DNA of 64,000 bases from Scardovia inopinata JCM 12537. Lineage in GTDB: Bacteria > Actinomycetota > Actinomycetes > Actinomycetales > Bifidobacteriaceae. The number at the start of each line of letters is the position of its first letter. Position 1 is the stretch's first letter. The position numbers and the translations under genes were made by a program. Location: positions 1,488,001 to 1,552,000 of the forward strand of contig NZ_AP012334.1 of NCBI RefSeq assembly GCF_001042695.1, written 5' to 3'. The notes below the pieces were generated by a model. The model saw nothing but the letters and a program-made list of their open reading frames with translations, did no database searches and was not told the origin of the DNA. Positions 32,549-50,781 of this stretch are shown in pieces.

Positions 32549-32607
32549 TCAATATAACGTCTAGCTGCCGATACCAGGCAACAGAGCATACTGAACATTT
32601 ATATTTA

Positions 32608-32680
32608 CCTGATTTGCCAATTTTATCGTTACAGTCTGGCTATATAAGAATCCTGATTTGCCAATTTAATCGTTATAACT
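32608..32680. repeat. Two direct copies of an IS30-end-like sequence
   Basis: CCTGATTTGCCAATTTTATCG at 32608 recurs 44 bp on at 32652 with few changes over about 29 bp. The second copy runs into the stop codon of the IS30 remnant, so both are probably right-end sequences of nested or successively inserted IS30 copies. Confidence 0.5.
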
Positions 32681-32835
32681 TGGTGCGGTAGAAGTCATAA
32701 ATTTCCTGCCGTGTTTTATAGTGTAGACTCTTGCGGGGAATACGGTTCCGTTTAACTGCCACATAGCGTATATATGAGTCTTTGACCATGTTGAAATTCA
32801 TCGTTTTGGGCAGTTCACTACGCCTAAATGCTGCT
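32673..32835 (-). pseudogene. IS30-family transposase, C-terminal remnant
   Basis: The minus strand reads FNMVKDSYIRYVAVKRNRIP then RKSLHYKTRQEIYDFYRTKL and stops. NRIPRKSL-YKTP is the standard end of IS30 transposases. The N-terminal and catalytic parts are missing; the frame fades above about 32835. Confidence 0.7.
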
Positions 32836-33691: not shown

Positions 33692-35236
33692 GTGGAAAAG
33701 CAACACAGAATATTATTAATGCTTGTTAGCTTATGCGTAGCGGAAGCGATTATTTTCATCAATACCACTGCGTTCAATCTTGCTCTGCCGTCGGTTGCTG
33801 GCAGTCTTCATGCATCCACCGCCGCACAACAGTGGATGGTTTCTATATATTCTCTCTGTTTCCTTGCAATCTTATTGGTTTCCGGATTTTTTGGTGATTT
33901 GATTGGGTACCGGCGCGTATTGTTGTCTGGGCTTGTTTTATATGCTGTCGCAGCTGTTTTGGGAAGCGTGGCACACACTATTATTCTGGTTATTGTCGCA
34001 CGAGGTCTCTTAGGTCTCGCTGCAGGAATGTTTATACCAATGGGATTAGCTACAATTACATCTGTTGTCTCCCCAGGGGATAATAGTAAAGCGGTTACTC
34101 TCTGGACTGTTGCCGGCACTCTTGGTATTCCGCTCGGACCTGTTATCGGTGGGTTAATGACATTGCTAATGGGATGGCGCGGTCTTTTTGTTTTCGATGC
34201 TGTCGCAATTGTTATCGCATTAGTGCTCAACTATCTGTTTATGCCACGTCAACACCAATCTCATATACAAAATAATCAAAATAGGCAAAATCATCAGCTG
34301 AAAAACAGCAAAATATCTACACGCTTTCCAATTATTCAAGCAACTCTGATCGTTGTGGCGATGAGCGCACTGTCTGTTGGGCTGATTAATGCACAGACAT
34401 CGTTCCTCTCATTTACTACGCTATTTCCTTTGTGCTGTGGCATATTATTTGCTGTATCCTTCAGTTTTCTGACTCTTCATGCTAAGCACCAGCTTACAGA
34501 TTTGACACTTATGCGTTTCACGTCATTTCAGGTAAGCTCTATAGCACTGCTTCTGCTGAACTTTGTTGTGTTCGGAATTTCCTTTATTCTTCCTACATAT
34601 TTCCAGGAAGCGAAGGGGCATAATGCATTAATGAGCGGGATTATGCTTATGCCAATGATTCTATCTGCTATTGTAGGTGCGCTGCTGAGCAGGAATATTA
34701 TCGGCAGATTTGGAGAGAAAACAGCGTGCTTTATTAATTTGGCGTGTATAGGATTTGGTCTGGCTGTTATGGCGCTTGCAATCCACTTGGACTTATATAT
34801 TCTTCTTTCCCTCGGGCAAATTATTGCTGGCATTGGAATGGGTGCTGGACAGCCTGTAGCTTTTAGTTGGGCATTCGTAGACGTTCCTGTAGAGCGGATG
34901 GGTAAAGGCTCTTCTCTGCTCACTGTTTTCCAACAGCTCGGATCAATTCTGGGTATTGGTATATTTGGTTCCGTACAAGGTGCGCTCTATTTTCAGGAGC
35001 TCACGCGAGAGTTAAACAATACACGACTTACTGCTGCGCATACTATTACTATTTCGTTGCAGCAAGCAGGCAAAGTCAGCGGCGCAAGTGGGAAATTATT
35101 AAAAGTAAGTGCAATCAAAGCCTACGAAACTGCAGGATCAATTAATTTTGTTATAAGCGCGTTGGTTATTTTTGTGATACTGCTTATCCTTATTGTTTTA
35201 CTTCATGCGTGCAGTGTGAAGAAAAGTATACCTTAG
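33692..35236 (+). CDS. MFS drug-efflux transporter, DHA2/EmrB-QacA type
   Basis: A 514-residue membrane protein with about 14 predicted helices. Motif A appears as GDLIGYRRVLLSG, motif C-like Gly/Pro stretch as GTLGIPLGPVIGG, and GWRGLFVFD follows as in the DHA2 family. The linker near residues 185-215 is rich in Gln/Asn (HQSHIQNNQNRQNHQLKN). It should export hydrophobic compounds using the proton gradient. The start ATG or GTG region around 33692 is preceded by GGATTG. Short inverted repeats lie in front (GGACT...AGTCC at 33599; GTTCA...TGAAC near 33628), possible repressor sites. Confidence 0.85.
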   Translation: MEKQHRILLMLVSLCVAEAIIFINTTAFNLALPSVAGSLHASTAAQQWMVSIYSLCFLAILLVSGFFGDLIGYRRVLLSGLVLYAVAAVLGSVAHTIILVIVARGLLGLAAGMFIPMGLATITSVVSPGDNSKAVTLWTVAGTLGIPLGPVIGGLMTLLMGWRGLFVFDAVAIVIALVLNYLFMPRQHQSHIQNNQNRQNHQLKNSKISTRFPIIQATLIVVAMSALSVGLINAQTSFLSFTTLFPLCCGILFAVSFSFLTLHAKHQLTDLTLMRFTSFQVSSIALLLLNFVVFGISFILPTYFQEAKGHNALMSGIMLMPMILSAIVGALLSRNIIGRFGEKTACFINLACIGFGLAVMALAIHLDLYILLSLGQIIAGIGMGAGQPVAFSWAFVDVPVERMGKGSSLLTVFQQLGSILGIGIFGSVQGALYFQELTRELNNTRLTAAHTITISLQQAGKVSGASGKLLKVSAIKAYETAGSINFVISALVIFVILLILIVLLHACSVKKSIP

Positions 35237-35340
35237 TGGCCATACTTGTCTGCACGAACTGATATCGTTTATAAGAGTTAAATAACATTGCCCATATTGG
35301 ATGATGATTATCACTCCAATTAGCAAACAGAGGTCCTTAA

Positions 35341-35379
35341 GCAAAACGTCCAATAGGTTAACCCTATTGGACGTTTTGC
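35341..35379. terminator. Perfect 17-bp hairpin at the border of the two genome types
   Basis: GCAAAACGTCCAATAGG, loop TTAAC, CCTATTGGACGTTTTGC. It lies between the convergent MFS and glutathione-S-transferase genes and has A- and T-rich flanks of the stem suited to termination on both strands. Confidence 0.7.
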
Positions 35380-35389
35380 CAAGTAATAA

Positions 35390-36034
35390 TTATTTTGCTT
35401 GATCTTGCAGAGAATGGGGACGCCCTTCCTGCTTTAAAACAGCTTGAACTGAGTCTCTTTTTCTCATATTTTTATCGAACTTCTTTAGATTATCAAGTTG
35501 ATCAAAGCCATACTCTAATCGAGTAAGCCAGTTAGTCATAACAAATAAAAATAAATAAGCGTCGGGAGCTGAAAAATGATGGTCAACTAAATAGTCGCAC
35601 CCTTTTAAGGCTTCATCTACATATTTTAGTCTTGGGAGGACACGATCATATACTAATTTTTTTGACTCAACTGTATTTGGTAACCAGTTTCCTTTTCTGA
35701 AAGGAGAAATAAAATTTTTGTGCAGTTCAGTAGCAACGTAATTTAGCCAAATTCTTTGTTCCCAATAGATCGCACTGTCATATTGTCCCATCAATTGCTT
35801 ATCAGGTACTTGAGAAGCAATGTATTCTAAGATCACAGCACATTCAGTCAAAACTGTGCCATCTTCAATTCTTAAAGAAGGGACATATGACTTGGGGTTG
35901 ATTACATTATAATTACCCTTAGACCATGTTTTTACATCCAAATTAACTTTTTCGGCCACATAGTCTAAGCCACTTTCTTCCAATAAAATATGTGGCGCCA
36001 GTGAGCTAGCTCCCGAAGCATAAAATAATTGCAT
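35390..36034 (-). CDS. Glutathione S-transferase family protein
   Basis: A 214-residue protein of usual GST length. The N-terminal thioredoxin-like domain has MQLFYASGASSLAPHILLEE, with Ser/Ala in the catalytic region of bacterial beta-type enzymes, the cis-Pro in SYVPSLRIEDG and the glutathione-binding LTECAVILEYIA. The C-terminal helical domain follows. It would conjugate or reduce electrophiles with glutathione. The ArsR-type regulator lies 48 bp upstream on the same strand, so the two form one unit. Confidence 0.85.
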   Translation of the reverse strand: MQLFYASGASSLAPHILLEESGLDYVAEKVNLDVKTWSKGNYNVINPKSYVPSLRIEDGTVLTECAVILEYIASQVPDKQLMGQYDSAIYWEQRIWLNYVATELHKNFISPFRKGNWLPNTVESKKLVYDRVLPRLKYVDEALKGCDYLVDHHFSAPDAYLFLFVMTNWLTRLEYGFDQLDNLKKFDKNMRKRDSVQAVLKQEGRPHSLQDQAK

Positions 36035-36082
36035 AAATTTTCTCCTTAATTTGATAGCTATCGAAATACAAGCGAAGAATTA

Positions 36083-36369
36083 TTACAGTGTATTTAATAA
36101 ATTAGGCAAGTATTCTTGAAACGTTTGTTGATTTAGAGATAAATACTTAATTTGAGCTTGTTTCCTTGTTCGAGTTAATCCAGCTCTGCGCAGGGCTTTA
36201 AAGTGATAAGAAACTGTTGAAGGGGCAATTTTCAAAGAGTGACTTATTTGACCGCAAGTTAACTCCCTATCACTATCTCTCAGGATCTTAATAATCCTAA
36301 TTCGATTAGGTTCGCTTAAGGCACGGAACAATTTAGCTTTTTTCTTCTTTTTCTATTTCGACATTCATG
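36083..36369 (-). pseudogene. ArsR-family regulator with a frameshift near the start
   Basis: The readable frame starts at a TTG (36331) and gives FRALSEPNRIRIIKILRD, ELTCGQISHSLKIAPSTVSYH and FKALRRAGL, a standard ArsR winged helix. In front, an ATG at 36369 opens MNVEIEKEEKS and stops at once; deleting one T from the six-T run at 36339-36344 would join it as EEKAKLFRALSEP. The gene is thus either damaged by one base, phase-variable in the homopolymer, or starts at the weak TTG. No metal-binding Cys pair is visible. It precedes the GST gene. Confidence 0.7.
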
Positions 36370-36553
36370 GAAGTAGCTTACTACTTCATATCTATAAAGT
36401 CAATGTACTTTGTATATAGTTATTCAAATATCGACCTACAACGGCCAAGATACCAAAAAAGGAATTAAGTAGGTCATAACTTAACTAAAAAGCAGTTGGA
36501 CAATTTGAACCCCGACCAACTGCTTCAATACCCCAGAAAGGATATACAAATAA

Positions 36554-37080
36554 ATGTACAATCATTATAACATCAATCAAACGACTTTGAGTATCGCAAT
36601 CGACTATCTGCCTGAAGAAAATCATCCTGCTAGGTACATTAATTAATTAGTTGAACAGCTGAAATTGGAATACCGATATGAATTCGGTCGGCCTCACGAA
36701 TACGATATGGGGGGCGATGTTTAAGTTGATCCTCTTAGCTTATAGTTATGGAATCTTTAGTAGTCGGAAAATTGAACGCTTTGCGCGCGAAAACAAAGCC
36801 GCTGGGTGGCTGTTAGATGGCTAAGTGCCGTCTTATCGAACAATTTGTCGTTTTAGAATTTCAGATCAGATTCAAGATATTACTCAAAGTGGTATCACTC
36901 AATTGACGCATTTCTTAAAATCGGTCGGCCTTGTGGATGAGGCTACTTTCATTGATGGTACGAAGATTCTGGCTGATGCTAATAAATATAGTTTTGTCTG
37001 GAAGAAGAATACGATTCGTTTTGATCAGTTAAATCGAGAAAAACTAGTCGCTTTATTAGGTGAGTTGCGCGAGGCGCAAC
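36554..37080 (+). pseudogene. IS1182-family transposase, N-terminal remnant
   Basis: Frames along this stretch read MYNHYNINQTTLSIAIDYLP, YEFGRPHEYDM, LILLAYSYGIFSSRKIERFA, VPSYRTICRFRIS and EATFIDGTKILADANKYSF. These are the ordered N-terminal and first catalytic (DGT) segments of lactobacillar IS1182 transposases. There is an in-frame TAA near 36646, a frame change around a G-run at 36710, and further breaks, so it is dead. The right part of the element is missing. Confidence 0.75.
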
Positions 37081-37376
37081 TTTTAGATGAAATTCCTAGC
37101 GGATCGGATCTTCAACCAGAAAGGCTGATTTTCCTATCACCATCAGTCCCAGGTTTCACCAACCAGGAAATTGCTGGCTACTATACCAGCGAAATCCTAC
37201 GTAATTATGAACAAGTAGCTAAAGAAACAGCTACTAAATACCAGGAAGAATTCTTGGATTTAACTGCTAAAATGGAAGAGCTAGGGGATTTTTCATCCTA
37301 CACTATTGATGATGGCCAGCACTATAGCGAGCAAGGGATTAAATGGCTGGCTAACCAGCTGGTAAAGGCAATCTAA
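37081..37376 (+). pseudogene. SGNH-hydrolase-like C-terminal fragment fused to the IS1182 remnant
   Basis: The frame of the transposase remnant continues without a stop into IFLSPSVPGFTNQEIAGYY and ends YTIDDGQHYSEQGIKWLAN. DxxH (DGQH) followed by SEQGIKWLAN looks like the final block of SGNH/GDSL esterases. The N-terminal blocks are missing. The exact junction is uncertain. A perfect terminator follows. Confidence 0.45.
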
Positions 37377-37396
37377 TAGGAAAGAAAATAGGCGAT

Positions 37397-37440
37397 AAAA
37401 AACTGACTTACTCAAGTTATGAGATAAGTCAGTTTTTTTT
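37397..37440. terminator. Bidirectional rho-independent terminator
   Basis: AAAACTGACTTA and TAAGTCAGTTTT form a perfect 12-bp stem with T8 on the plus strand and A/T-runs on the other, ending six bases before the rclA stop codon. Confidence 0.8.
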
Positions 37441-37445
37441 AGTTT

Positions 37446-38777
37446 TTAGAATTTGAATAAGTCATTAAGAGCTTCTGTCATAGTTGGGTGAGCATAAATT
37501 TGGTCACGCAAGTCTTCAGCCTTTAAGTGGTGCTGCATTGCTAAAGTAATGACATTGATAGTTTCGTAAGCTTCTTCAGCGTAAATAGTAGCACCTAAGA
37601 TTTCGTGGGTTTCTGGGTCAATCAAAGCCTTGTATGAGCCTCTTGGGTTGCCGATGACTTGGGCCTTTGGCACACCAGCTGCAGGCATTGTTAAGACCTT
37701 GTAAGCTTTACCTTGGGCCTTTAACTCGCTTTCAGTTAGTCCAGCTGAAGAAATTGCTGGCTTAATGAAGATTGAGTTAGCAAAAACTGGACGATTCTTC
37801 TTAGTCCTAGTCTTGTCACCAAAGAGTTGATTGTCCATAATCCGCCAGTCATCAAGCGAAATGTAGGTAAATTGCAAGCTACCGGCAACATCACCCATAG
37901 CGTAGATATTAGGAACACTGGTTTCAAGCTTGTCGTTAACGACAATTTCGCCTCTTTGGCCAACTTCAAGACTGGTTTTTTCTAGGTGAAGGGCAGCAGT
38001 GGCTGGGTGCCGGCCAACTGACACAAGCATCGCATCTGCTTGCAAGTCCTTAACACCATCTTCGGTTTTAACGGTTAAGTTAAGACCAGCTTCAGTTTCT
38101 TCAACCTTGGTCAAAGAAGACTTAAGCATGAAGGTAACGCCATCTGCTTCCATATCAGCCTTAGCTGCTTGAGCAATTTCTGGTTCAAACCGGCCCAAGA
38201 TACTTGGCATTGGTTCAATTACAGTTACTTTACTGCCAAAGCCAGCATACATTGAAGCAAATTCAAGTCCGATTGGTCCACCACCTAAAATAACCAGATT
38301 CTTAGCAAGTTCTTTTTTAGCAAGCATTTCAGTTGAAGTAAATATCTTATCGTCAATCTTTAGGCCATCAATATTTGGTACATTACTTTCGGCACCAGTA
38401 TTAATGAAAAGACGGTCGAATGTTAATTCTTCTGTACCTGATTCATCAGTTACCTTGATTATCTTATCATCAATAAATTCAGCACTTGCATCAAGCACAG
38501 TTGCCAAGTCTTGGTCTGCTACCTTGTGGTAGTTCTTGTTGCGTAGTTTTGCTGTCATAGCTTCCTTAATTTCGAAAGCTTCTTCATACTTAACTCCTCT
38601 TTGAGAGTTAATTACCAAGTTCTTAGTTGGCAAACATGCGATGTTGATACATGTTCCGCCGTACATCATTGGATCTTTTTCAATCAAAAGCACTTCTTCA
38701 CCATGACTTGTCAGGCTCCCTGCCAAAGTCTTACCAGCTTTACCAAAACCAATAATAATATTCTTAAAATGTCTCAT
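37446..38777 (-). CDS. rclA: RclA-like pyridine nucleotide-disulfide oxidoreductase
   Basis: A 443-residue flavoprotein. The FAD motif is IIIGFGKAGKTLAGSL, the redox-active pair is in YGGTCINIACLPTK (C-x4-C), the NAD(P)H motif is LVILGGGPIGLEFASM, and the second FAD site is NIYAMGDVAGSLQFTYISLDD, followed by AHPTMTEALNDLF. These segments match E. coli RclA, which protects against hypochlorous acid and reduces copper, better than dihydrolipoamide dehydrogenase. It stands alone in lactobacillar-type DNA. A TTTT-rich promoter region lies upstream with no visible regulator. Confidence 0.85.
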   Translation of the reverse strand: MRHFKNIIIGFGKAGKTLAGSLTSHGEEVLLIEKDPMMYGGTCINIACLPTKNLVINSQRGVKYEEAFEIKEAMTAKLRNKNYHKVADQDLATVLDASAEFIDDKIIKVTDESGTEELTFDRLFINTGAESNVPNIDGLKIDDKIFTSTEMLAKKELAKNLVILGGGPIGLEFASMYAGFGSKVTVIEPMPSILGRFEPEIAQAAKADMEADGVTFMLKSSLTKVEETEAGLNLTVKTEDGVKDLQADAMLVSVGRHPATAALHLEKTSLEVGQRGEIVVNDKLETSVPNIYAMGDVAGSLQFTYISLDDWRIMDNQLFGDKTRTKKNRPVFANSIFIKPAISSAGLTESELKAQGKAYKVLTMPAAGVPKAQVIGNPRGSYKALIDPETHEILGATIYAEEAYETINVITLAMQHHLKAEDLRDQIYAHPTMTEALNDLFKF

Positions 38778-39112
38778 ACTTAGACTCCTAATCCAAATTC
38801 TCGCTACTTATTTTTTATCAGTAACATATTTCTTTTACAAAATAGCACGATAGATGTCAGCTGTCTACAATTTCGCTTATAAAAAGTAACTTCCTGTTTT
38901 TAATTCAAGACAAACCGTGGATTTTACCCACACCCACAAGCCTTTACGATTTTTAGTGCGTTTGCGCAGTTTAAACGTGATATGATCGTTACCCGAACAC
39001 AAGAAGGCAAGGCATATGCTAAACGAAACGACCCACACTTTAGAGCCTGTTTAGTGTCTTTGCAGACTAGCTAAATTTCAGGTATGCTTTGTATAAAAAA
39101 TGGAGTTAGCTC

Positions 39113-39319
39113 ATGCAAACTTTTACTCATCACTATGGTAGCGATATTACGCGTGACCTTCCGAGTGATTTTCCGAAGTGGCAAACCGTTTATTATTACT
39201 GGGTACTTTGGACAAAACAAGACACCCCAATGAAGATGACCCTATTAACTAGGGTTTTAAAAAAACTGTCGCTTCCCTACGATTCAACCAAGGTCGGTCA
39301 ACAAGAACCTCGTTCTTGA
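39113..39319 (+). pseudogene. IS5-family transposase orfA, internally deleted
   Basis: 68 residues only. It begins with a normal start (YGSDITR) but jumps directly to DLPSDFPKWQTVYYYW, a segment usually some 40 residues further on in this family; the domain between them is missing. The joint falls at CGTGA, a short word that could have been a direct repeat. The frame ends 4 bases into orfB. Confidence 0.65.
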
Positions 39320-39786
39320 TATTAGATGCTCAAAGTGTTAAAAACACCGACACAGCAAAATATTCCGGTTATGATGGCGGCAAAAAAATTAAAGGCATCA
39401 AGCGAACATTAGCCGTCGATAATCAAGGGTTTCCCCAGGAAATTCACGTCACTACGGGTGACGTATCTGATCGTGACGCGGCGAGTACGCTATTGATGTT
39501 ACATGCAGATCAATTTAACCTTGTCCAGCAGATCATGGTTGACGGCGGCTATACAGGAGATAAGTTTGCCAGCTTAGTTGGCAATAGCATTGGAGCAGAT
39601 GTCATCATTGCCAAGCAAAGTGATTTAAAGCATGGTCATGTAACCCCACAACGGTGGGTGATCGAGCGAAGCTTTGGCTGGTTAGAAAAGTGCCGTCGCC
39701 TCTGGAAAAACTGTGAACGCAAGCTTCACACCAGCGCAATGATGGTTACGTTAGCTTTTCTTCGCTTCATGCTCAAAAGACACTAA
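39316..39786 (+). CDS. IS5-family transposase orfB (catalytic part)
   Basis: 156 residues with the DDE core: Asp in ILDAQSVKNTD, Asp in MVDGGYTGDKF and Glu in RWVIERSFGWLEKCRRLWK. It overlaps orfA by four bases, consistent with production by ribosomal frameshift. With orfA defective, this copy can move only if helped in trans. Confidence 0.85.
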   Translation: MILDAQSVKNTDTAKYSGYDGGKKIKGIKRTLAVDNQGFPQEIHVTTGDVSDRDAASTLLMLHADQFNLVQQIMVDGGYTGDKFASLVGNSIGADVIIAKQSDLKHGHVTPQRWVIERSFGWLEKCRRLWKNCERKLHTSAMMVTLAFLRFMLKRH

Positions 39787-41356
39787 ACAGGCTCTTAGTT
39801 GATATTGCGCGTAGTGCTGGCATTGATCTCAAGGAGGATTCACGTGATTACTACTGCGGTGTCGATCACGATTCCTTAGTGATTGATACAAAAAAGAATC
39901 TATGGAAATGGAACTCCCAGAATTTAGGTGGTGGTACGATTGAATTCGCCACCACCTTTTTAGATCAGAAAGGTTTCTATCAGGCTGTCAAGTTTCTCAA
40001 CGCTGGTCACTACGATGAAACAAAGATTCAAACTGCGCCGAAGGCAGCCTATCATAACTATTTGAAACGAGCTGATAGTTTTGATCGAGCACGGGACTAC
40101 CTCACCATCGCCAGAGGGATTAATCCTCATATGGTTGACCGCTTGTACCAAAAAGGACTCATTTTTCAGGACTCACAAAACAATCTGATCTTTCAATGGG
40201 CACGCAACGGTAAAGCAGTTGGTGCTAGTATTCAAGGTACCGAAATTGATTTTAAAAAATACGGTAAACGCGGCACGCAAAAAAAGATTGCCGCTAATTC
40301 GCAATCAGATTTTGGCTTCAATTTTAGTTTGGGAAAACCTCAAGATCTGTATATGTCTTTGAGTCACCGATTGATGCGTTGAGTTACTGGACACAACACC
40401 CGCAGCTGACTAATTGCATGATTGCCTCAGTTGATGGTACCGAAGTTGAAAGTGTCGTGAATATGGCGGTCAATATGTATAAAACAAAAGGACAATTGCC
40501 AGCCACTATTTATGTCGGTTCCGACAATGACCCAGCTGGTCATCAGCTTTATGACAAACTGCAAGACTCCATCTTAGCGAATACCGAGGCTGAGGTGACC
40601 ACCTTTAAGCCGCTCTTTCCACAGGATAATGCGATCACCCAGACGACTTACCAAGGCTTGAAACAAGCTGCGGATCAAGCGGGCATTGACTGGCGTGAGT
40701 TGGCAGCAGCAGTTAAAGCAACAACCAATCTTTCAACGAACTTCCAGCAAGCTTTTCCGCTGCCACAAGCCGTTGCCAAAAACAGCGTACTGATCGATCC
40801 CAACCCTGGAAAAACTAACTTTAATTCAGATGAGGCTTTACTAACCGCGGCAAAGTTCATCAAAGCTAACCGCACCAGTGATAACGAGCCTGATTGGGAC
40901 GCCATTACAAAGAAACTAAATCCTGGTATTGAGGATCATGACCTCGAACATTTAGCTACCAAGTCTTCTTACTACAACACACGTTACCAAGCTGATAATG
41001 GCATTTTGCCGGTGACTAAAATTGCTAAAGATTGGAATGAGCTAGCCAAGTTAGCTCAACAGCAAGAACCGATCAATCAGCAGTTAGAAAAGACCTATCG
41101 TCGTCAGGATGGAAAAACTGCCAAACTAATTGCCAACGGCCAAGATCAATTCTCGCTCGTTGATCGTCAGCAGCCAGATAAAGTAGTTGGGTTCTTTGAA
41201 GCTAACGATCCTCAACAGTGCGCCTATTTGATTAAGCAGTACGGGTACAACGCTGTAGACAAAGAAGATGAGCAGAAGTATCAACAAACTCAGCCGGTTA
41301 AGCCGCAACAGCAGCATAAAAAGCAACGTGCAGCAGGACTAGAGCAAAGTATGTAA

Positions 41357-41580
41357 TGCCCTACCTGCTGGGTTTCAGTCGAGCTGGCGACGAGAACGGC
41401 TGGGTTTTGCCGTTCCGTTGCATTATGTTGCCGAGATCGGATCTAATCCTCGCGGCAGGCAGAGGCCCGAAGCGCGTGGGCGGGGCAGGCGCCCCACGCT
41501 TCTCGGCCTTGGCCGAAGCGGCTTTTTCTGTAACGCAAAAGCGGCTATATCCCTTGTGGCTCTAGGAATATAGCCGTTTA
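41357..41580. other. GC-rich palindromic stretch and terminator, plasmid-type
   Basis: No gene is credible here. The stretch 41456-41515 is far richer in G and C than its surroundings and holds imperfect palindromes (GAAGCGCGTGGG... CCCCACGCTTC; TCGGCCTTGGCCGA). At 41542-41580 CGGCTATAT and ATATAGCCG with T-rich flank form a terminator. Such GC-rich blocks occur near transfer or replication regions of lactobacillar plasmids; no nick site can be named. Confidence 0.45.
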
Positions 41581-41650
41581 TGTGCTATAATATTATTAGC
41601 AGAAAAGTTAATGACGGTTGGTAAATCCAATCACAAAGAGGTGGTCGCCT

Positions 41651-41704
41651 ATGAAAGACGTTCAAAATCCAAGTGAAAGGAGGTGCCTGTTTGTCCGTTG
41701 CTGA
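41651..41704 (+). CDS. 17-residue leader peptide overlapping the toxin start
   Basis: ATG at 41651 encodes MKDVQNPSERRCLFVRC and ends at TGA (41702-41704), overlapping the first codons of the toxin frame in another phase. The toxin's own ribosome site lies inside it. Translation of this leader could tune toxin translation; whether it is made is unknown. Confidence 0.35.
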   Translation: MKDVQNPSERRCLFVRC

Positions 41705-41810
41705 GGCAATCACGCTGATGTTAGCATTTGGCAGTTTCGTACTGTCACTTGTGAACACCTTTGTGACCCTTGTAAAAGCAATGCAAGACAATCAAAAAGA
41801 CCGTCATTAA
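41691..41810 (+). CDS. Holin-like small toxin (Hol-Tox type), type I toxin-antitoxin
   Basis: A 39-residue peptide starting at TTG behind a consensus AAAGGAGGTG. It has one predicted membrane helix (LMLAFGSFVLSLVNTFVTLV) and a charged tail (KAMQDNQKDRH), with the SVAEAITLML front typical of putative holin-like toxins related to BsrG/TxpA. Such peptides damage the membrane when their mRNA is not silenced by an antisense RNA. An extended -10 (TGCTATAAT, 41583-41591) precedes it, and a hairpin (41796-41837) overlaps its stop codon. It sits between plasmid genes, as expected of a maintenance module. Confidence 0.8.
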   Translation: MSVAEAITLMLAFGSFVLSLVNTFVTLVKAMQDNQKDRH

Positions 41811-41913
41811 ACTTCTTGGCTGGAGTTAACGGTCTTTAGATTGAAATTCTATGCCAGCCGTCTTTAACGGCTCTGCTAGGGGAGTACTCTTACGGGGGTA
41901 CTCCCTGTTTGTA
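41790..41913 (-). ncRNA. Predicted antisense RNA antitoxin
   Basis: On the minus strand an extended -10 (TGTTATAAT, 41919-41927) with a possible -35 (TAGTCA) 17 bp away points toward the toxin. The RNA would begin with a stem-loop (GGGAGTAC...GTACTCCC, 41880-41905) and end at the hairpin AAAGACCGT...ACGGTC followed by TTTTT on this strand, overlapping the last codons and 3' end of the toxin mRNA. This is the convergent layout of type I antitoxins. No expression data are available. Confidence 0.5.
41796..41837. terminator. Bidirectional terminator shared by toxin mRNA and antisense RNA
   Basis: AAAGACCGT and ACGGTCTTT form the stem; on the minus strand it is followed by TTTTT, on the plus strand by TTTAG. 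It would be complementary in both RNAs and could be their first contact site. Confidence 0.6.
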
Positions 41914-41964
41914 TTCTCATTATAACAGAAAAAGCACAATCTGACTAGACTATGCTTGCACTCT

Positions 41965-42354
41965 TTAAGCCTTGATAGCACCTTCAAAGGCATTCTTGAT
42001 GTCTGGATTGAGTAGTGGTGCTTGGTTCCCAGTAACGTTGCTAGTAATCATCTGCAGGGTGCTTAACTCCTGCGCACTGGCTTTGTCAGGCTTAACTCCT
42101 AATTCAATACACAAGATAGCAAGTACGAACCACTCTCGATTACCTTTGTTGAATTTAGCAAGTGTTTTGTAGTAGGCATTGACCATATTCACAGCCACGC
42201 TGTCAGCCACGACCTCTTCAAGTTGCTTCGTCAGAAGTTTCTTGTAGTGCTTCTTAGGTACCACAGTCTCGTTGTAACAATAAGTCATGTCCTGCATGGT
42301 CTGGGCGAGTTTGTCACATGGCTGTTTCACAATTTCGTCGTAGGTAGTTTTCAC
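41965..42354 (-). CDS. Plasmid protein of unknown function, 129 residues
   Basis: A soluble, mostly helical 129-residue protein (MKTTYDEIVKQPCDKLAQTM... FEGAIKA). I recognise no domain. It is the last of four small codirectional genes, two bases after the 47-residue gene, and together they look like a plasmid accessory operon. A hairpin near 41880-41910 follows. Confidence 0.6.
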   Translation of the reverse strand: MKTTYDEIVKQPCDKLAQTMQDMTYCYNETVVPKKHYKKLLTKQLEEVVADSVAVNMVNAYYKTLAKFNKGNREWFVLAILCIELGVKPDKASAQELSTLQMITSNVTGNQAPLLNPDIKNAFEGAIKA

Positions 42355-42356
42355 AG

Positions 42357-42500
42357 TTAAAGACCTCTTTCGATTTCTTTTTCTTGCCGAATATAGGCAT
42401 CAACGAGTTCTAACGCGTGACGCAGGCGGTTAAAGGTATCGCTGTCCAGTTCCTCAATGACTTCACTCAATGCCGCTTGTGCTTGTTGTTGGTCAATCAT
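42357..42500 (-). CDS. Small helical plasmid protein, 47 residues
   Basis: MIDQQQAQAALSEVIEEL is followed by a second helix ending in IRQEKEIERGL. The ATG at 42500 has GAAGGTG in front and overlaps the stop of the upstream gene by eight bases, so it is translated by coupling. A longer frame upstream exists but would overlap that gene by more than 250 bp. No family recognised. Confidence 0.6.
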   Translation of the reverse strand: MIDQQQAQAALSEVIEELDSDTFNRLRHALELVDAYIRQEKEIERGL

Positions 42501-42942
42501 GGGTGTCACCTTCTTCCAGTGGAACAACTTCACAATTCGGGTTGAGCCATTTAGCAAATTCTTTTGCGGCGGCCTCGGTTTCAAATCGTTTCGCCTGTGT
42601 TTCGTCCCGAACGTAAGCCACCTCATCAAACTCATCGTCATCGTAGCTAGCATGGTGAACAGCTTGCGCGTAAAGTAAGCCAAGTTTGACGCCCCATTCA
42701 ATTTTTGGAAATCCAAACCCAGCGGCCACAACGTCTGGTTCCTCATTCATATCCCCGGGTTCAACGATGACGCTATCGACTAATGCACTTTCTGGCAATT
42801 CTGGGTTTTGACTCAAAATAAAGTTTGTTGCGAGCCGTTGTAGATCTTTGTCCTTTGCGTCTTCGCTGGCATACACCATAATGAAGTGTGGTTGATATTC
42901 GATTTCGTCAATGCTGACCTGATACATTTTCCCTTTTTTCAT
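42493..42942 (-). CDS. Acidic plasmid protein, 149 residues
   Basis: A strongly acidic protein (runs such as DDDEFDEVAYVRDE and EEGDTHD) beginning MKKGKMYQVSIDEIEY. It has no membrane segment and no motif I recognise; an acidic DNA mimic or a partner of the neighbouring proteins would be conceivable, without proof. AGGAGGAATAACTA precedes the start. It overlaps the next gene. Confidence 0.6.
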   Translation of the reverse strand: MKKGKMYQVSIDEIEYQPHFIMVYASEDAKDKDLQRLATNFILSQNPELPESALVDSVIVEPGDMNEEPDVVAAGFGFPKIEWGVKLGLLYAQAVHHASYDDDEFDEVAYVRDETQAKRFETEAAAKEFAKWLNPNCEVVPLEEGDTHD

Positions 42943-42954
42943 TAGTTATTCCTC

Positions 42955-43401
42955 CTATTTGATAACTACTACGCTGACGTGTTCGTCCATAAACCGTTGC
43001 GCAGATTGATTGATAAGCTGATATTTTGCAAAGGTGCGCGTCTCTGGCGTGAGCTTCGCTAGTAACTTGTCAGATACAACCGCCGTCAGCTTGCTATCGC
43101 CTAGCATAAGCGCTGTTACTAATAGCTTTGTTGCTTCATGGGCTTGCGTAGAAGCAAACAGGAAGTCTTCTGTGACGTAATACGGGGTTTCGCACCCATT
43201 GGCATAAAAAGCAAGCCGCTGATTGCCAAGACGGTCACGTTCAATTTGACTAGTGAGTTCACTCTTGCGAGCAATTTCTTGAATAAAACCAAGTAGGCCA
43301 CTACTCAACTTATCGTGCGTTCGTTGTCCGTTTGGCCAACTCTCAAAAACACCCTCCTCATCGTCTTCAATCATTGGCAGATAAAATGGTAATTTTTTCA
43401 T
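42955..43401 (-). CDS. Plasmid protein of unknown function, 148 residues
   Basis: The ATG at 43401 with AGAAAGGGTG in front is preferred over a frame that runs 130 bases further upstream through Cys-rich, unlikely sequence. The product MKKLPFYLPMIEDDEEGVF ... DEHVSVVVIK is soluble and mixed alpha/beta. It is the first gene of the four-gene unit; the next starts 12 bases later. No family recognised. Confidence 0.6.
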   Translation of the reverse strand: MKKLPFYLPMIEDDEEGVFESWPNGQRTHDKLSSGLLGFIQEIARKSELTSQIERDRLGNQRLAFYANGCETPYYVTEDFLFASTQAHEATKLLVTALMLGDSKLTAVVSDKLLAKLTPETRTFAKYQLINQSAQRFMDEHVSVVVIK

Positions 43402-43564
43402 GGTTGTCACCCTTTCTACCGGCGGTTTTTTGAAGCCGCCTTTGATGTAACAGCCACACCAGCCACAGCAGAAAACGCAAGGGTGAGCGTAGCGAAAGTG
43501 GCAAAAATTTGTGGAACGGTCTTTGCGGAACAAAATCTTGTCCGGCCCTTGTTTTTTCTGCTAG

Positions 43565-43596
43565 AGCCGCTTAGGAACTTGTTCCTTAGCGGCTTT
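43565..43596. terminator. Stem-loop upstream of the small-gene operon
   Basis: AGCCGCTTAGGAAC and GTTCCTTAGCGGCT pair (13 of 14) around TT, followed by TTGTTG. It probably ends a transcript or isolates the operon at 43401. Confidence 0.55.
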
Positions 43597-43843
43597 GTTG
43601 CTGGTTGAATGCGGAATCAAAGCAAGGCAAAAACCGGCAGTAGAAAGGCACCTGCGGGCATGCCCGCGTGGCGGCACGCCACAAGCTTTATGTACAAGTC
43701 TTGAGTATGCAATGTGCTATCCTGCAAGCTAGAATTGGCGAGTTTAGGTACAATCTGGACTTGCCAGTTACCTATCCTGAGACGACAAGACGTTGCCAGG
43801 GCGTGCGGGTCGGCTTAGGGCCCGCCGCCCCTACGCAAACTAA

Positions 43844-43874
43844 GCCTTACTGAGCGTTATTTGCTCAGCAAGGC
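43844..43874. repeat. 12-bp inverted repeat in front of the nuclease gene
   Basis: GCCTTACTGAGC and GCTCAGCAAGGC pair (11 of 12) around seven bases, with GC-rich sequence (GGGCCCGCCGCCCC) 20 bp before. The hairpin ends 30 bp before the nuclease start. An attenuator or a transfer-origin-like structure are both possible. The rest of 43597-43843 holds no gene I can support. Confidence 0.4.
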
Positions 43875-43903
43875 CTCCACTATGAATCAGAAAGGGATCC
43901 CAT

Positions 43904-44508
43904 ATGAAATTAACAACGAAATGGCTTTTAGCCCTCAGTACAGTATTAGCAATTAGCATCAGTGGTTGTTCAGCAGTTGGAAACTCGAATGCCAGTCAGT
44001 CGAACAAAACTAAATCTGCGACTTCCTCTGCTATGTCAGCAAGCACACTGAAACCGCGCAGACCAACAGCGATCTTGCCAACTTACCGTTTGATCTGGCA
44101 AAGTACCCGCAAAACTACACAATGGTTAATCAGAACGTCCCAATTTTTGAAAATAGTTTTAAGCAAACGGTAGCAGCCGCACAAAAAGCGAAAACCACAC
44201 GCGCTCAAACTTATTTTGACGGTTTGGATGATCTGGGAAGGACGCAAAGCGTATCTGCCATTGTGACCTACAGTATGATGCACAGTCATGCAAGCTCTGA
44301 GCGCAAGCGACCAGCCTTTCCTAAAACGACAAAGATTTCCGGTGAGTACGCTGATGGCGTGTATAACAAGAACCTGCAACAATGGTTTGGGCGTAGCAAC
44401 AACAATCGCATTGTCCAGCTCAACGGTTACCGTGGATACCTATATAATAAAAGCCACCTGTTAGCGTGGTCGCTAAGTGGCGATATGCAGACACATAATG
44501 TGATCTTA
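43904..44508 (+). pseudogene. DNA-entry-type nuclease lipoprotein, frameshifted and truncated by an IS
   Basis: It opens with a lipoprotein signal (KLTTKWLLALSTVLAISISG, then Cys) and a Ser/Thr/Asn-rich linker. Near 44048 one base is missing: the next frame continues TETAQTNSDLANLPFD and YPQNYTMVNQNVPIFENSF. The nuclease part reads GEYADGVYNKNLQQWFGRSN and GYRGYLYNKSHLLAWSLSG, where SHL is the place of the catalytic His of the DNA/RNA non-specific endonucleases. At 44508 the IS5 end cuts off the C-terminal half. The intact protein would be a surface nuclease. Confidence 0.75.
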
Positions 44509-44873
44509 GAACCTGTCTAGTATCTTCTGAGAACCAGCGCTAAATAAGCTAGCACAACTATTTGGAGGCTTGAATTGAGCTTGCGCTCGCAGTTTTTCCA
44601 TAGCCGCCGGCACTTATCTAGCAAGCTCCATGAGCGTTCGATGATCCATCGTTGTGGCAATACCTTGAACGTATGAAGCTCATTGCGCTTAGCCACTATT
44701 GTATTAGCACCCAAAATAAGTCTCACTTGATCCGAAAAGTCTGGTCCAATATAACCACCATCAACCATGACACGCTGAACTGATTCGAGCGTTTGATTCG
44801 ATAAACTGAACATAGCAAGAGCGCCTTCGCGATCTGATACGTTGGCAAGAATGATATGGGTTGCCGCAGGCAA
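44509..44873 (-). mobile_element. IS5-family element, truncated; orfB C-terminal part
   Basis: The end GAACCTGTCTAGTATCTTCTG at 44509 resembles the IS5 copy at 39043, and TTA lies just outside it, the same target triplet. The minus-strand frame gives VMVDGGYIGPDF (Asp) and PQRWIIERSWSLLDKCRRLW (Glu), the second and third DDE residues. The first third of the element is missing at the fold-back near 44867. Sequence differs clearly from the other copy, so it is a distinct IS. Confidence 0.8.
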
Positions 44874-44890
44874 TCCATATCATTCTTGCC
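44844..44890. repeat. 47-nt fold-back at the IS5/IS3 junction
   Basis: GGCAAGAATGATATGG-GTTGCC, loop GCA, GGCAAT-CCATATCATTCTTGCC: 22-nt arms with one mismatch. The left arm is part of the IS5 orfB; the right arm is the same stretch inverted, directly followed by IS3-family coding sequence. Confidence 0.85.
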
Positions 44891-45613
44891 TACATCAACG
44901 CGGAGACGCAATACTACGTGGGTCAAGGCCGAGTTCGCCGAATCATGCGGTTGGCAGGTATCCGCGCCTCCATTCGTGTGGCAAAGCGTGACCGTCAAGA
45001 GGAGAAGAAGGAGTTTCTCCTCGTCAATAAGCTCTACACCGTCAACCTGGGTCACGCTTTCCACCCAGTCGCTCCTAACGTAGTCTGGGTGACCGACTGC
45101 TCAGAGATCACCTACGGCAAGGACAACAAACAGAGGCTACGGCTAAGCGCCGTAAAGGATCTTCATGACCACAGCGTGATTGCTTGGTGCGTAGCACCGC
45201 CAGAGACGGTTGATTTGGCTACTAAAACAATGAAACTGGCCATCGTGAATAATGACGGTATCAAGCCTGATACCGTACACAGTGATCAGGGAACGGCTTA
45301 CACAAGTAGCACCTACAACACGTTCCTGGCGGGCGAAGGTATCACGCACAGCATGTCACGACCCGGGACACCAGGCGATAACAGCCCTATGGAGAGCTTG
45401 TAGAGTCACCTCAAGATCGAGAGATTTGCCTTTGAGCACTGTTTATCGGAACTAGAAATGATGAAGCGTATTGAGGCGGCAATAAACTGGTATAACAGCG
45501 AACGCCGTCAAGAAACACTAAACGGCATGACCCCGATGACATACCGGAATCATGCCGTAAAGGAAACTGCATAGGCACTTTAATTATTTCACCTGTCTAC
45601 TTGACGCGGACCA
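44891..45613 (+). pseudogene. IS3-family transposase orfB, truncated, with a nonsense codon
   Basis: The frame reads INAETQYYVGQGRVRRIMRL, NVVWVTDCSEITYG (first Asp), TVHSDQGTAYTS (second Asp), RPGTPGDNSPMESL, then TAG at 45402, then SHLKIERFAFEH and INWYNSERRQETLNGMTPM to 45574. The usual text is MESFWSHLK, so TAG replaces the Trp codon. The N-terminal part is missing at the fold-back. The right end is near TGTCTACTTGACGCGGACC (45594-45612), an IS3-type terminal repeat. Confidence 0.8.
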
Positions 45614-45628
45614 GCGCCAATATAGGGT

Positions 45629-45655
45629 CACCACTTTCCTTTTGACAAAGTGGTG
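45629..45655. terminator. Hairpin downstream of the IS3 remnant
   Basis: CACCACTTT, nine bases, AAAGTGGTG: a perfect 9-bp stem about 50 bp beyond the HxlR gene stop. It may terminate transcription from the right. Confidence 0.4.
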
Positions 45656-45704
45656 TTGAAATTGACATGCCGTGGATTTTTTTCGCCATAAAGGTTATTC
45701 TTAA

Positions 45705-46049
45705 TTAAGCTAATGCTTTTCGCCGCACTTTATATGCTTCACCCCAAGCTGCCATAGCCTGAATGACAGGTGCTAGGGTCTGGCCTAGTGCGGTTAATTG
45801 GTATTCTGTAGCCCGTCCGTCTGCATAACCAGCTCTCTTGACGATAATATTATCGGCCTCGAGTTGCGCCAACTGTAATGCCAGCATGCGCTCGGTAATA
45901 GATGGAATGGCTTTGTTGAGTGTACTGAACCGAGTCGCATCGCCTTGAAAAAGATGATAGAGAATGACGCTCTTCCATTTACCGGCAATCACGTCAACCG
46001 TATTTTGGACGGGACAGCCTGCAGCACAATCGTAAATTTCTCGTGACAT
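45705..46049 (-). CDS. HxlR-family transcriptional regulator
   Basis: About 114 residues beginning MSREIYDCAAGCPVQNTVDV. IAGKWKSVILYHLFQGDATRFSTL and ITERMLALQLAQLEADNIIV are the winged-helix core of HxlR/MarR-like redox regulators; the Cys in YDCAAGCPV is at the place of the redox-sensing Cys of HypR/YodB-type members. It is divergent from the MDR-type oxidoreductase, 146 bp apart, and probably represses it until electrophile or oxidant stress modifies the Cys. Confidence 0.85.
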   Translation of the reverse strand: MSREIYDCAAGCPVQNTVDVIAGKWKSVILYHLFQGDATRFSTLNKAIPSITERMLALQLAQLEADNIIVKRAGYADGRATEYQLTALGQTLAPVIQAMAAWGEAYKVRRKALA

Positions 46050-46194
46050 CAATAGGACTTCCCTTAAAAACACATTTGCTGATGCAGAAGCTGACTTCCA
46101 CATCGTTTTCACTTACAATTTATTCACTTACTATGATAGTGCCTTCCAGTTAACATACAAGGTGAAGCTTAAGTCATTGAAAGGAAGTCTCGTC

Positions 46195-47217
46195 ATGAAA
46201 GCAATTGGATTCACCCAGCATTTGCCGATTACTGATGAACATAGTCTTGAAAATATAACGTTACCGACACCAACACCTGAGGGCCATGATCTTTTGATTA
46301 ACGTTCATGCCGTCTCAGTCAATCCTGTCGATACCGGTACGCGCGGCGCTGGTCATGGTCGCTTAGCTCATCCAAAAGTGATCGGCTGGGACGCAGTCGG
46401 AACCGTTGCCGGTATTGGTCGCGATGTCACCCGCTTTAAGATTGGTGATCGCGTCTTTTACGCTGGCAGTTACAAGCGGTCTGGCAGTGATGCTGAATAT
46501 CAGCTAGTTGATGAACGCATTGTCGGGCATGCCCCGGCATCTTTAAGTGATCCGCAAGCCGCCGCAATGCCATTAACCAGTTTAACCGCTTGGGAAGCTT
46601 TATTCGAAAAGTTGCACATACCACTGCATGATCGAGCCACGGACGCTGAGCACACCATTCTAATCATCAATGGCTCCGGCGGGGTCGGTTCAGTCGCGAC
46701 GCAGCTTGCACATTGGGCCGGCCTGCAGGTACTCGCCACTGCTTCACGGCCTGATTCGCAAAAATGGATCAAAGACCACGGTACCGATTTCGTTCTCAAT
46801 CATCGGCAGCCATTGCCACCACAGTTAAAAGCGGCTGGTTTCAAAAACGTCGATTATATTTTAAATCTCTCCCATCTTGATGACCATTGGAACGAGATCG
46901 CGGAGATGATTCGTCCTGATGGCTGGGTTGCTGCGATTACCGAAAATCGGCGCGGCATTGACTTGCAGAAACTAACTAAAAAACGAGCGACGTTCGCCTG
47001 GGAATGGATGTTTTCTAAGTCTTGGTATGGTTATGACCTTGCCTCACAAGGTCACATTCTCGACCAGGTGGCTAAGCTGCTTGATGATGGTACTATTCAA
47101 TGCACGCTAACCAAAACCCTGCAGCCATTGAATGCTGAAAATCTGCGACAAGCCCACGCATTGGTTGAGTCAGGACATATGATTGGTAAAGTCGTGGTTG
47201 ATGGGCCTTGGGCTTAA
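46195..47217 (+). CDS. MDR-family zinc-binding-type alcohol dehydrogenase/quinone oxidoreductase
   Basis: About 340 residues, starting at ATG 46195 behind GAAAGGAAG. The GroES-like N-terminal part has VNPVDTGTRGA and VIGWDAVGTV, the Rossmann part IINGSGGVGSVATQLAHWAG. Zinc-ligand Cys/His residues are absent, so it belongs to the quinone-oxidoreductase branch that uses NADPH on quinones or reactive carbonyls. With the adjacent HxlR regulator it makes a familiar detoxification pair in lactobacilli. The ISL3 element begins 53 bp after its stop. Confidence 0.85.
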   Translation: MKAIGFTQHLPITDEHSLENITLPTPTPEGHDLLINVHAVSVNPVDTGTRGAGHGRLAHPKVIGWDAVGTVAGIGRDVTRFKIGDRVFYAGSYKRSGSDAEYQLVDERIVGHAPASLSDPQAAAMPLTSLTAWEALFEKLHIPLHDRATDAEHTILIINGSGGVGSVATQLAHWAGLQVLATASRPDSQKWIKDHGTDFVLNHRQPLPPQLKAAGFKNVDYILNLSHLDDHWNEIAEMIRPDGWVAAITENRRGIDLQKLTKKRATFAWEWMFSKSWYGYDLASQGHILDQVAKLLDDGTIQCTLTKTLQPLNAENLRQAHALVESGHMIGKVVVDGPWA

Positions 47218-47270
47218 TATCGGCAATCAACTGAGCAGTTTTGATAAGGACACACAAGGATACTAAAAAT

Positions 47271-48722
47271 GGGTCTACACTTTCTGGTGTTGAGAAATAA
47301 TCAACACTGAACGTGTAGGCTCTTTTTGGATAACGCAAAAAGATACCTACTCAGTGTCCATGCTATGCTTGTTAGCGTCGAAACCAAAAGCAAGCGAGGT
47401 TATGAGTAAATGTCCCAATACGATCCTACACTGTCCGTCCTTGGAATACCAGACCATCATATCAAAGTTGCCTTTGTTCGTCATGAATATCGCGGCAACG
47501 GGGTACGTCGCCGCCAGTATCATGTGATTGATGCCGAGCTGACTTACCGGTTAACCCGGTGCCCACTGTGTGGCTTTGAGGCCTTGCACCCTAACGGGTT
47601 TTACACAGCCCACGTGCGCATCCTCAACGGGATTGAAATACCGACAGTCATTGACTTGCACAAGCAACGATGGCGCTGTCATAACTGTTACCACACAGTC
47701 AGTGCCAAGACGCCACTCGTGCAACCCAACCACACGATCGTCGCTCACATGACAGAGCGAATCATGAAGTTAGCGCATGAACGGTTGCCAGTCAAAACCA
47801 TCGCCCGTATTATCGGGATCTCAGCTTCCTCGGTTCAACGGATCATTGACCAAAATCTAAAATTCCGACCGGCTCGCCGGCTACCCACGCGACTCTGCTT
47901 TGATAAGTTCCGTTCCACTCATGGCATGATGTCGTTTATCTGTCTTGATGCCGATTCACATCGTCTGATTGCCTTGCTTGGTGATCGATTCAACCGCACG
48001 ATTAAAAACTTCTTCATCGCTCATTATTCACTCGCTGAACGCACTCGGGTCCAGACGGTCACCATGGACATGAACGCAGCTTATCAGACGATTATTCATG
48101 AGGTTTTCCCCAAGGCCCAAATCGTCATTGATCGGTTCCATATCATTCAACTTGCGGCTCGTGCCCTTGATCAGGTACGCGTCCAAGCGCTCAAACAGCT
48201 TGATGACAAGCACAGCCGTCCTTATAAGATCATGAAGACAAACTGGCGGCTTTTTCATCAAACTGCGCCTGACGCTAAACACAAACAGTTCCTGTTTGGT
48301 TTGAATGAATACGTCACGCAACAGGAGGCCATCGATATCGCACTTGATACTGAGCCCAAGCTCAAGCAAACCTACGAGACCTACTTAGCGCTTCATGATG
48401 CCTTGATGGTGAAGAAACATCCCGCAGAACTGGCAAACCTGTTAGCTACTTACGAGCCAAACGGTACGGCAATTGACATGACGATCGCGACGCTTAAGCG
48501 ACACAAAGTCGCTGTTCTCACCGCTGTCACCAGCCCTTATTCCAACGGTCCGATCGAAGGCGTTAACCGCCTCATCAAGTCACTCAAACGATCCTGTTTT
48601 GGCTTCAAGAATCAGCTGAACTTCTTCAAACGAATCTACCAAATCACGGCATAACATGACAAAGACGGCTAGAACCGCCTCAAATGACAAATTTATTCTT
48701 CAACACCAGTTGACGCAGAGCC
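47271..48722. mobile_element. ISL3-family insertion sequence, complete, 1452 bp
   Basis: The left end GGGTCTACACTTTCTGGTGT and the right end (complement GGCTCTGCGTCAACTGGTGT) are related inverted repeats bracketing one transposase gene. I see no 8-bp target duplication: the flanks are ACTAAAAAT and AAAAAATTT. This, and the missing start of the PFL gene on the right, suggests a deletion next to the element. Confidence 0.85.
47410..48654 (+). CDS. ISL3-family transposase
   Basis: A 414-residue transposase of usual length. The N-terminal zinc-ribbon-like part has [14 protein letters not shown] and [10 protein letters not shown]; a helix-turn-helix follows ([18 protein letters not shown]), and the DDE part includes [25 protein letters not shown] and [20 protein letters not shown] with the final Glu. 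The frame is intact, so this copy may be active. Confidence 0.92.
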
Positions 48723-49195: not shown

Positions 49196-49206
49196 TTTTT
49201 CTCTCA

Positions 49207-49356
49207 GGCTCTTGTTGTATTCCCAAATGCTAGAAAGAAAACGTGGCAAATAACCGCCAAGCCTGCCTAGTGTCTAAGCCGTCTGAAGAACGGTGCGTAC
49301 CCTACCAACCGCTCACCCTAGCTTAGTCAGACGACCTGCCGAGAAAGTTATTTTCC
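49207..49356. repeat. Intergenic repeat, copy 1 (about 150 bp)
   Basis: Shares with copy 2 the ordered words CTTGTTGTATTCCC, AAAACGTGG, AAATAACCGC, GGCTGAAGAACGG-type, CCTAGCTTAGTCA, CGACCTGCCGAGAA and GTTATTT. No coding potential of its own. Such repeats are familiar from heterofermentative lactobacilli; I name no family. Confidence 0.7.
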
Positions 49357-49362
49357 ACCCAC

Positions 49363-50768: not shown

Positions 50769-50781
50769 CCATAAATAACTA

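Follow-up and report, generated by a model that had tools for sequence, protein, structure and literature searches.

A block of 32.7 kb in Scardovia inopinata JCM 12537T (Actinomycetota) is, with little doubt, a real transfer of Lactobacillaceae DNA into the chromosome of another phylum. The region is likely a chromosomal island of Lactobacillaceae plasmid-type DNA, a lactobacillar circle having been integrated via a Sin-like resolvase. It extends from window position 35226 to L004:3895 (genome 1523226-1555895; 32,670 bp including one copy of the 5-bp core described below). The window is the whole stretch of 64,000 bases analysed (positions 1488001-1552000 in one contig, 1,797,862 bases long; 96.92% complete, 0.41% contaminated), and L004 denotes the 20 kb directly to its right, L004:1 continuing the window numbering. 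The published chromosome, AP012334, is circular, finished and without plasmid (1,797,862 bp; PMC4432351). The strain comes from human dental caries and was sequenced by the Sanger method from 2-kb and 10-kb clone libraries, both ends being read, at 10.7-fold (PMC4432351); PMC5540593 likewise gives the genome size, with 48.63% GC.

Next, we determined the limits of the block from its homology to plasmids. The features around the left junction, in window coordinates, are:

33692-35236, plus strand: host-side DHA2-type MFS gene (TIGR00711 141.8 bits, below the cut-off of 230.2); its 3' end is the integration site
35226-35230, unstranded: GTATA, the 5-bp core common to the chromosome and the plasmid site, left junction by homology limits
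35226-35239, plus strand: left half of the plasmid palindrome, GTATACCTTAGTGG, by comparison with plasmids
35226-64000, unstranded: Lactobacillaceae-type island, window part, by homology and composition; continues to L004:3895
35277-35296, plus strand: accessory motif of the res-like site in degenerate form, at a distance of 49 bp from the centre of crossover
35341-35379, unstranded: perfect hairpin inside the island, -32.2 kcal/mol as RNA

Homology on the left starts at 35226, with 90% identity over 119 bp to Levilactobacillus brevis plasmids (best E 2e-36). The plasmid search with this end, at an E limit of 10, gave 38 records and 60 places in Levilactobacillus and Lactiplantibacillus plasmids; a phage collection searched with it gave no match. 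In five plasmids, the left-end sequence is preceded by the other half-palindrome. On the right, homology stops by L004:3901 among the 15 matches listed of 1,225 records, and by 3898 against seven plasmid loci. The right end of the island reads CCATTAGGGTATA, and both ends together make up the imperfect palindrome CCATTAGG-GTATA-CCTTAGTGG, which is whole on lactobacillar plasmids. The chromosome contributes GTATA alone, at the 3' end of the MFS gene, and this target is not palindromic. When the flanks are joined, they read GAAGAAAAGTATAGTCAAAAGTTAG and the MFS frame closes with ...KKSIVKS and a stop, giving 516 aa in the reconstructed empty site against 514 aa at present. The predicted empty site would be an uninterrupted MFS end reading GAAAAGTATAGTCAAAAGTTAG. 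Since both joints lie in the same 5-bp core, the island ends re-form the palindrome and the flanks re-form the open gene end. Half-site patterns are absent from the 360 kb of chromosome that were sampled, in which GTATA is found 1.3 times per kb.

A sequence-only reading of this DNA had placed an abrupt change from bifidobacterial-like to lactobacillar-like DNA at the perfect hairpin. The hairpin exists as claimed (arms 35341-35357 and 35363-35379, 17 bp each, with a loop of 5 nt), and the change of DNA type is borne out by composition and plasmid matches. Its place is not, as the border lies at 35226-35230, about 110 bp to the left of the hairpin. Lactobacillar homology spans 35291-35340, reaching the hairpin, and its extension to 35226 rules the hairpin out as junction; the hairpin is probably the terminator of the glutathione S-transferase (GST) gene. 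Nor does the simple border of that reading hold: what changes here, genuinely, is the DNA at the left end of an island, which closes at L004:3895, with host-type DNA beyond.

Composition was compared with 18 sampled genome stretches, L003 and L004 being left out. In steps of 10 kb, the tetranucleotide correlation is 0.60-0.71 where the step starts at 1-27 kb, falls to 0.345-0.51 across the border and the island (starts at 30-54 kb) and is 0.70-0.80 again in L004. A Markov score, for which plasmids were the training set after their matching parts had been masked, gave one best lactobacillar segment, from window position 32349 to L004:4855. This segment exceeds the homology limits on both sides, so the composition of the two genes next to the joints, those for the MFS protein and the response regulator, is intermediate. 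Genes of L004 are of lactobacillar type up to 3.9 kb and are followed by sugar ABC transporters of host type (by eye). Host DNA is thus found on both flanks, with intermediate composition in the two joint-adjacent genes. One of the 18 reference stretches, L006 (genome 100001-120000), is odd as well: its correlation is 0.27-0.55, its bases 4001-20000 have a GC content of 36-39%, and no near match to the odd region was found among plasmids. L006 was excluded from the native Markov training set for this reason.

Relatives of the host MFS protein, 37-39% identical, are present in three genomes of the same family. Among the 15 plasmid matches listed for it, all are below 30% and none is lactobacillar, and a wider scan of genome contigs gave one weak match, in Oceanobacillus. 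No close MFS relative is present in either of the two remaining genomes of the genus (E 3e-11 and 8e-14), so the empty site is not visible there. The response regulator at the right joint has plasmid matches below 60% and reaches at most 38% in the same two genomes. On the host side, window positions 597-30778 hold a long run of genes read by eye as glycoside hydrolases, esterases, sugar ABC transporters and LacI-type regulators. Further to the right, at L004 15532-19045, a gene for 722 aa precedes a tandem pair of 223 and 222 aa. The N-terminal parts of the pair are near-identical, and the first has its C-terminal end in common with the 722-aa protein.

A host-type IS30-like element (type by eye) flanks the island, as a remnant at 32598-32822 and as a nearly whole copy at L004:4646-5710, the latter truncating the response regulator gene L004:4120-4653. 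A further host-type copy, 74% alike, lies at genome 1156853-1157909. Because both flanking copies are outside the homology limits, this pair was ruled out as the vehicle of the island.

We can now turn to the origin of the joints. A chimeric contig from a mixed culture had been put forward as the plainer reading, and an assembly chimera or contamination would readily account for foreign DNA up to 99% identical to that of another phylum. However, the genome is a finished circular Sanger chromosome with paired clones (PMC4432351), host-type DNA stands on both sides, the foreign type does not run to a contig end and the joints are not arbitrary. Reciprocal half-sites occur at both ends in the same 5-bp core, and the MFS gene end is re-formed. 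Such reciprocal joints would hardly be expected of two chimeric joins made at random at a distance of 32.7 kb, and an artefact of this kind is extremely improbable. As both island ends are two halves of one plasmid recombination site, a real transfer is the most likely explanation, not an assembly error. The inter-phylum junction, which the same reading would have found remarkable if real, is supported by the half-sites at both joints and by the host-type DNA around them.

Eight plasmid sites with the palindrome were compared, with gaps allowed, over 1 kb to either side of the centre; GTATA is present in all eight. Five plasmids (pUCCLB556_A, pLB1106-3, pDMC-S1-B, pGR0512-63 and p.pc-2602) have a common right side, which in all ten pairs is 90.6-99.8% identical over at least 838 bp, starting no more than 6 bases from the centre. 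To the left of the centre nothing alike was found in those ten pairs beyond the 18 bp adjoining it; in one pair a stretch of 80% lies on the left, at least 456 bp from the centre. The same block thus stands beside five different neighbours, which places the joint at the palindrome centre. pLPCDM001A and the Limosilactobacillus gastricus plasmid are alike on both sides (94-98%) with no homology switch between them and, being close relatives on both sides of the site, count as one case. pCYLB47-6 and the right end of the island have their left side, not their right side, in common with these two. Of the 64 six-base palindromes, GTATAC is most often the centre of an extended one: 13 fetched plasmid loci contain ten such cases, against four for the next best. 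Four of these ten are of another kind and belong to a pair of closely related plasmids.

In seven of the eight plasmid sites, the accessory motif GTTCAWTAGNAYTGTCCAAA is located 49 bp from the centre; pCYLB47-6 is without it, and in pGR0512-63 a motif-like match at 4889 is not accompanied by the palindrome. At the left end of the island, the 80 bp to the right of the centre keep 32 of the 36 columns that are invariant in seven plasmid sites. These observations bear on integration by microhomology, in which a lactobacillar circle or linear piece would have been broken at the palindrome centre, by way of a cruciform or an abortive resolvase cut, and joined via GTATA. Palindromes are fragile, and such an event would agree with the mere 5 bp common at the joints and with a chromosomal target that is not a palindrome. 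On the other hand, the same palindrome centre joins unrelated blocks in five plasmids and the accessory motif keeps a fixed distance from it, pointing to an enzyme. We consider microhomology unlikely.

The imperfect inverted repeats at the ends, CCTTAGTGG/CCTAATGG, and the GTATA on both sides could also be taken for the short inverted ends of a transposon and its 5-bp target duplication. Yet on plasmids both ends abut around GTATA as a palindrome with unrelated neighbours, no transposase gene was recognised that reaches either end, and no second copy of the island was found in the chromosome beyond short weak matches, so a transposon of this sort is very unlikely. A composite transposon was rejected as well, since complete IS copies do not stand at both island ends.

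Which enzyme might act at the palindrome is suggested by pLPCDM001A and the L. gastricus plasmid, where a gene for a 194-aa recombinase follows the site, its start lying 33 bp beyond that of the motif. The pLPCDM001A recombinase has Pfam resolvase and HTH_7 domains. The closest PDB entry to the 194-aa resolvase is 2r0q (E 3e-30), named Tn552 bin3, which we take to be Sin; gamma-delta, Tn3 and Sin chains come next. The resH site of Sin consists of a crossover palindrome and an accessory site, and both features of a Sin-type res site are found here, namely a palindromic crossover site I and an accessory site at a fixed distance. The resolvase gene is not beside the site in pGR0512-63 and p.pc-2602, and pDMC-S1-B has one 1.5 kb away that is of another sequence type. 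Because three plasmids carry the site without an adjacent resolvase gene, the link between enzyme and site is one that we infer.

Taken together, the joint was probably made by a resolvase at a res site, as far as can be judged from sequence comparison. A circular lactobacillar segment, itself mosaic, would have entered S. inopinata. A small serine resolvase of the Sin-like MAKIGYARVSSKEQ type, supplied by the segment or by a helper plasmid, would then have cut the centre of res site I, and the cut site would have been joined in one crossover to a chance GTATA at the 3' end of the MFS gene. The circle would have brought along the thiamine operon and an ECF transporter (both under TPP riboswitches), the ferrochelatase, the RclA/MerA-like oxidoreductase and the GST. 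Several points speak against resolvase joining, even though it is the best explanation. Resolvases normally act on two full res sites and the Scardovia target has none; moreover, pCYLB47-6 is without the accessory motif, and the resolvase gene adjoins the site in two kin plasmids only.

The content of the island was mapped by DNA comparison with seven fetched plasmid loci. Outside the thiamine block, its features in the window are:

35390-36034, minus strand: glutathione S-transferase-like gene, full-length, by family match
36083-36331, minus strand: ArsR-family regulator, by family match
36529-37230, plus strand: IS1182 remnant (36529-37096 is 69-71% identical to lactobacillar IS1182; the right limit is the plasmid homology starting at 37231)
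37446-38777, minus strand: RclA/MerA-like FAD oxidoreductase, full-length, DNA 97-99% identical to lactobacillar plasmids
38940-39034, plus strand: serine recombinase gene remnant, 84% identical to a pCYLB47-6 gene (Pfam Resolvase below cut-off)
39242-39786, plus strand: IS5-type transposase remnant, by plasmid and family matches
39795-44504, unstranded: Lacticaseibacillus-plasmid-like segment, 85-91% identical
47269-48722, plus strand: ISL3-family element, 97% identical to Lacticaseibacillus plasmids
48720-51884, unstranded: DUF711 piece, WYL regulator and pyridoxamine oxidase-like gene, 95-97% identical to a Limosilactobacillus fermentum plasmid
62495-63865, minus strand: MFS transporter, DNA 93% identical to pCYLB47-6

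Most mapped pieces have close relatives in a distant taxon, being 85-99% identical to Lactobacillaceae plasmids, and the value is 78% near the right end. Positions 35375-35483 and 37231-38941 are 97-99% identical to the Lactiplantibacillus plasmid pCYLB47-6, and 37353-38941 is 98.6% identical to a Lactobacillus gasseri plasmid. Towards the right, 62378-63951 is 93% and 63952-L004:2444 is 78% identical to pCYLB47-6, while the relatives of L004:2668-3895, at 90-91% identity, are plasmids from a tongue-coating Lacticaseibacillus paracasei and from Limosilactobacillus gastricus. No plasmid contains most of the island: none covers 80% of a 24-kb query, the best reaching 22%. For the GST gene, the two best identities among 354 plasmid records are one at 90-95% and one at 61% (Latilactobacillus curvatus). 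A 3-methyladenine glycosylase gene is also full-length.

The features named earlier on the right-hand side are indeed there, the names resting on analogy: GST, ArsR, ISL3, ykoEDC and RclA, the last as an RclA/MerA-like gene that scores below the curated cut-offs of both RclA and MerA. IS1182 is present as a remnant and Hol-Tox as RNA matches of the holin-like-toxin kind. The 39795-44504 segment contains a DUF3991 piece, hypothetical genes, RatA/rli28 RNA matches (41576-41761 and 41835-41922) and an endonuclease piece. Rfam matches to rli28 and RatA are paired on opposite strands twice in the island (41576-41922 and L004:2746-3088), and rli28/RatA-like DNA recurs on plasmids beside genes annotated as holin-like toxins.

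In 188 other genomes of the family, searched with the DNA of window positions 35240-51880 and with two candidates scored per genome, some match was found in 119. Most of those listed fall in the conserved DUF711 gene, and they are short, reaching about 380 bp at 64-84% identity. For this part of the window and among the matches listed, the island appears to be absent from related genomes of the family.

The thiamine block and its borders comprise:

51885-52440, plus strand: partial IS30-type element (type by eye), Pfam rve match below cut-off
52842-55459, minus strand: ykoC, ykoD and ykoE-like ECF transporter genes, with a TPP riboswitch upstream at 55549-55638
55896-56912, plus strand: ferrochelatase hemH, by family match
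57072-60201, plus strand: TPP riboswitch, thiM, thiD, thiE and tenA, a thiamine salvage operon, by RNA and protein family matches
61437-61992, plus strand: second partial IS30-type copy (type by eye), a direct repeat without Pfam match

The two partial copies, 51885-52440 and 61437-61992, are 556-bp direct repeats, 99.8% identical, and bracket the block. thiM, thiD and thiE are above the curated cut-offs, and tenA is above that of Pfam and below that of NCBIfam; the salvage operon apparently is intact. None of the plasmids searched matches the DNA of the block (52.8-60.8 kb) closely, the best being 70% over 17% in Lactobacillus sp. JM1, and its lactobacillar Markov score is weak, with one kilobase negative. 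Its lactobacillar origin is therefore less firm. Of the three genomes of the genus, one has matches to PF02110 (ThiM) and PF02581 (ThiE), and it has them only inside the island. A gain of thiamine salvage by S. inopinata is plausible, and since the only ThiM/ThiE matches of the genus sit in the island, the transfer may have changed its vitamin requirement.

A Pfam scan of the 32 island ORFs recognised no replication or transfer genes, neither a relaxase nor a tyrosine integrase, and a recombinase only as a remnant. The island thus probably cannot leave by itself. An integrative conjugative or integrative mobilizable element was rejected on the same grounds: such an element has its own integrase and relaxase, and the island has only the resolvase remnant below cut-off. 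L004:1292-1885 matches Replic_Relax, likewise below cut-off. A RepA_N scan, run without a positive control, gave no match in the genome, and Pfam recognised RepA_N in the RepA of pDMC-S1-B and in none of the 32 island ORFs. Elsewhere in the chromosome, there are an over-cut-off MobA/MobL match in two pieces (genome 764426-765090) and an over-cut-off serine recombinase match in a 632-aa open frame (genome 771482-771901). These matches at 764-771 kb perhaps belong to a separate integrated mobilizable element.

The island represents a base-resolved case of large inter-phylum transfer, in which the donor-type site, the target and both joints can be read. S. inopinata JCM 12537T was isolated from dental caries, and one plasmid relative of the right end comes from tongue coating. 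The comparison further suggests that lactobacillar plasmids exchange gene blocks at a site of resolvase type. We suggest only tentatively that Lactobacillaceae plasmids carry a module-shuffling system, in which a GTATA-cored res site, the accessory motif and a Sin-like resolvase join unrelated blocks; it might insert circles into chromosomes offering GTATA, even those of other phyla, and might so have moved the thiamine operon into Scardovia. In titles and abstract openings of the open-access literature, we found no report of this island or of this lactobacillar site.

Transfer between Lactobacillaceae and Bifidobacteriaceae has a precedent. According to PMC11707648, a sugar-phosphate transporter of termite-gut Bifidobacteriaceae groups with Lactobacillaceae homologues, indicating transfer between the families; S. 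inopinata is named there once, among the references. As described there, that case concerns one gene, traced by phylogeny in metagenome-assembled genomes, whereas a 32.7-kb block with both joints readable is found here.

Among known systems, integrated plasmids and genomic islands have the same foreign composition, high identity to the mobile DNA of other hosts and sharp ends, and the present island, like genomic islands, was not found in relatives as far as these were searched. It differs from them in crossing phyla and in having a plasmid site of resolvase type at its joints, and neither an integrase nor a transfer gene was recognised in it. Like IS30-type composite transposons, the thiamine block lies between direct repeats of 556 bp, but here the copies are partial and the island is not bounded by them. 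Integrative mobilizable elements that exploit Xer/dif sites also capture plasmid-like DNA in a chromosome via a short recombination site; in contrast to these, no excision machinery was recognised in the island, and its palindrome site is presumably unlike dif. A parallel in architecture is offered by the Sin and Tn552 bin3 resolvases and their res (resH) sites, which have the same palindromic crossover site with an accessory site at a fixed distance. These enzymes are among the closest PDB relatives of the 194-aa resolvase, the gene of which stands beside the site in two related plasmids. Unlike their sites, the present one, read from sequence, joins non-homologous blocks and a chromosome of another phylum instead of resolving dimers. 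An integrated plasmid segment is a known kind of element; what is new is the crossing of phyla with a resolvase-type joint.
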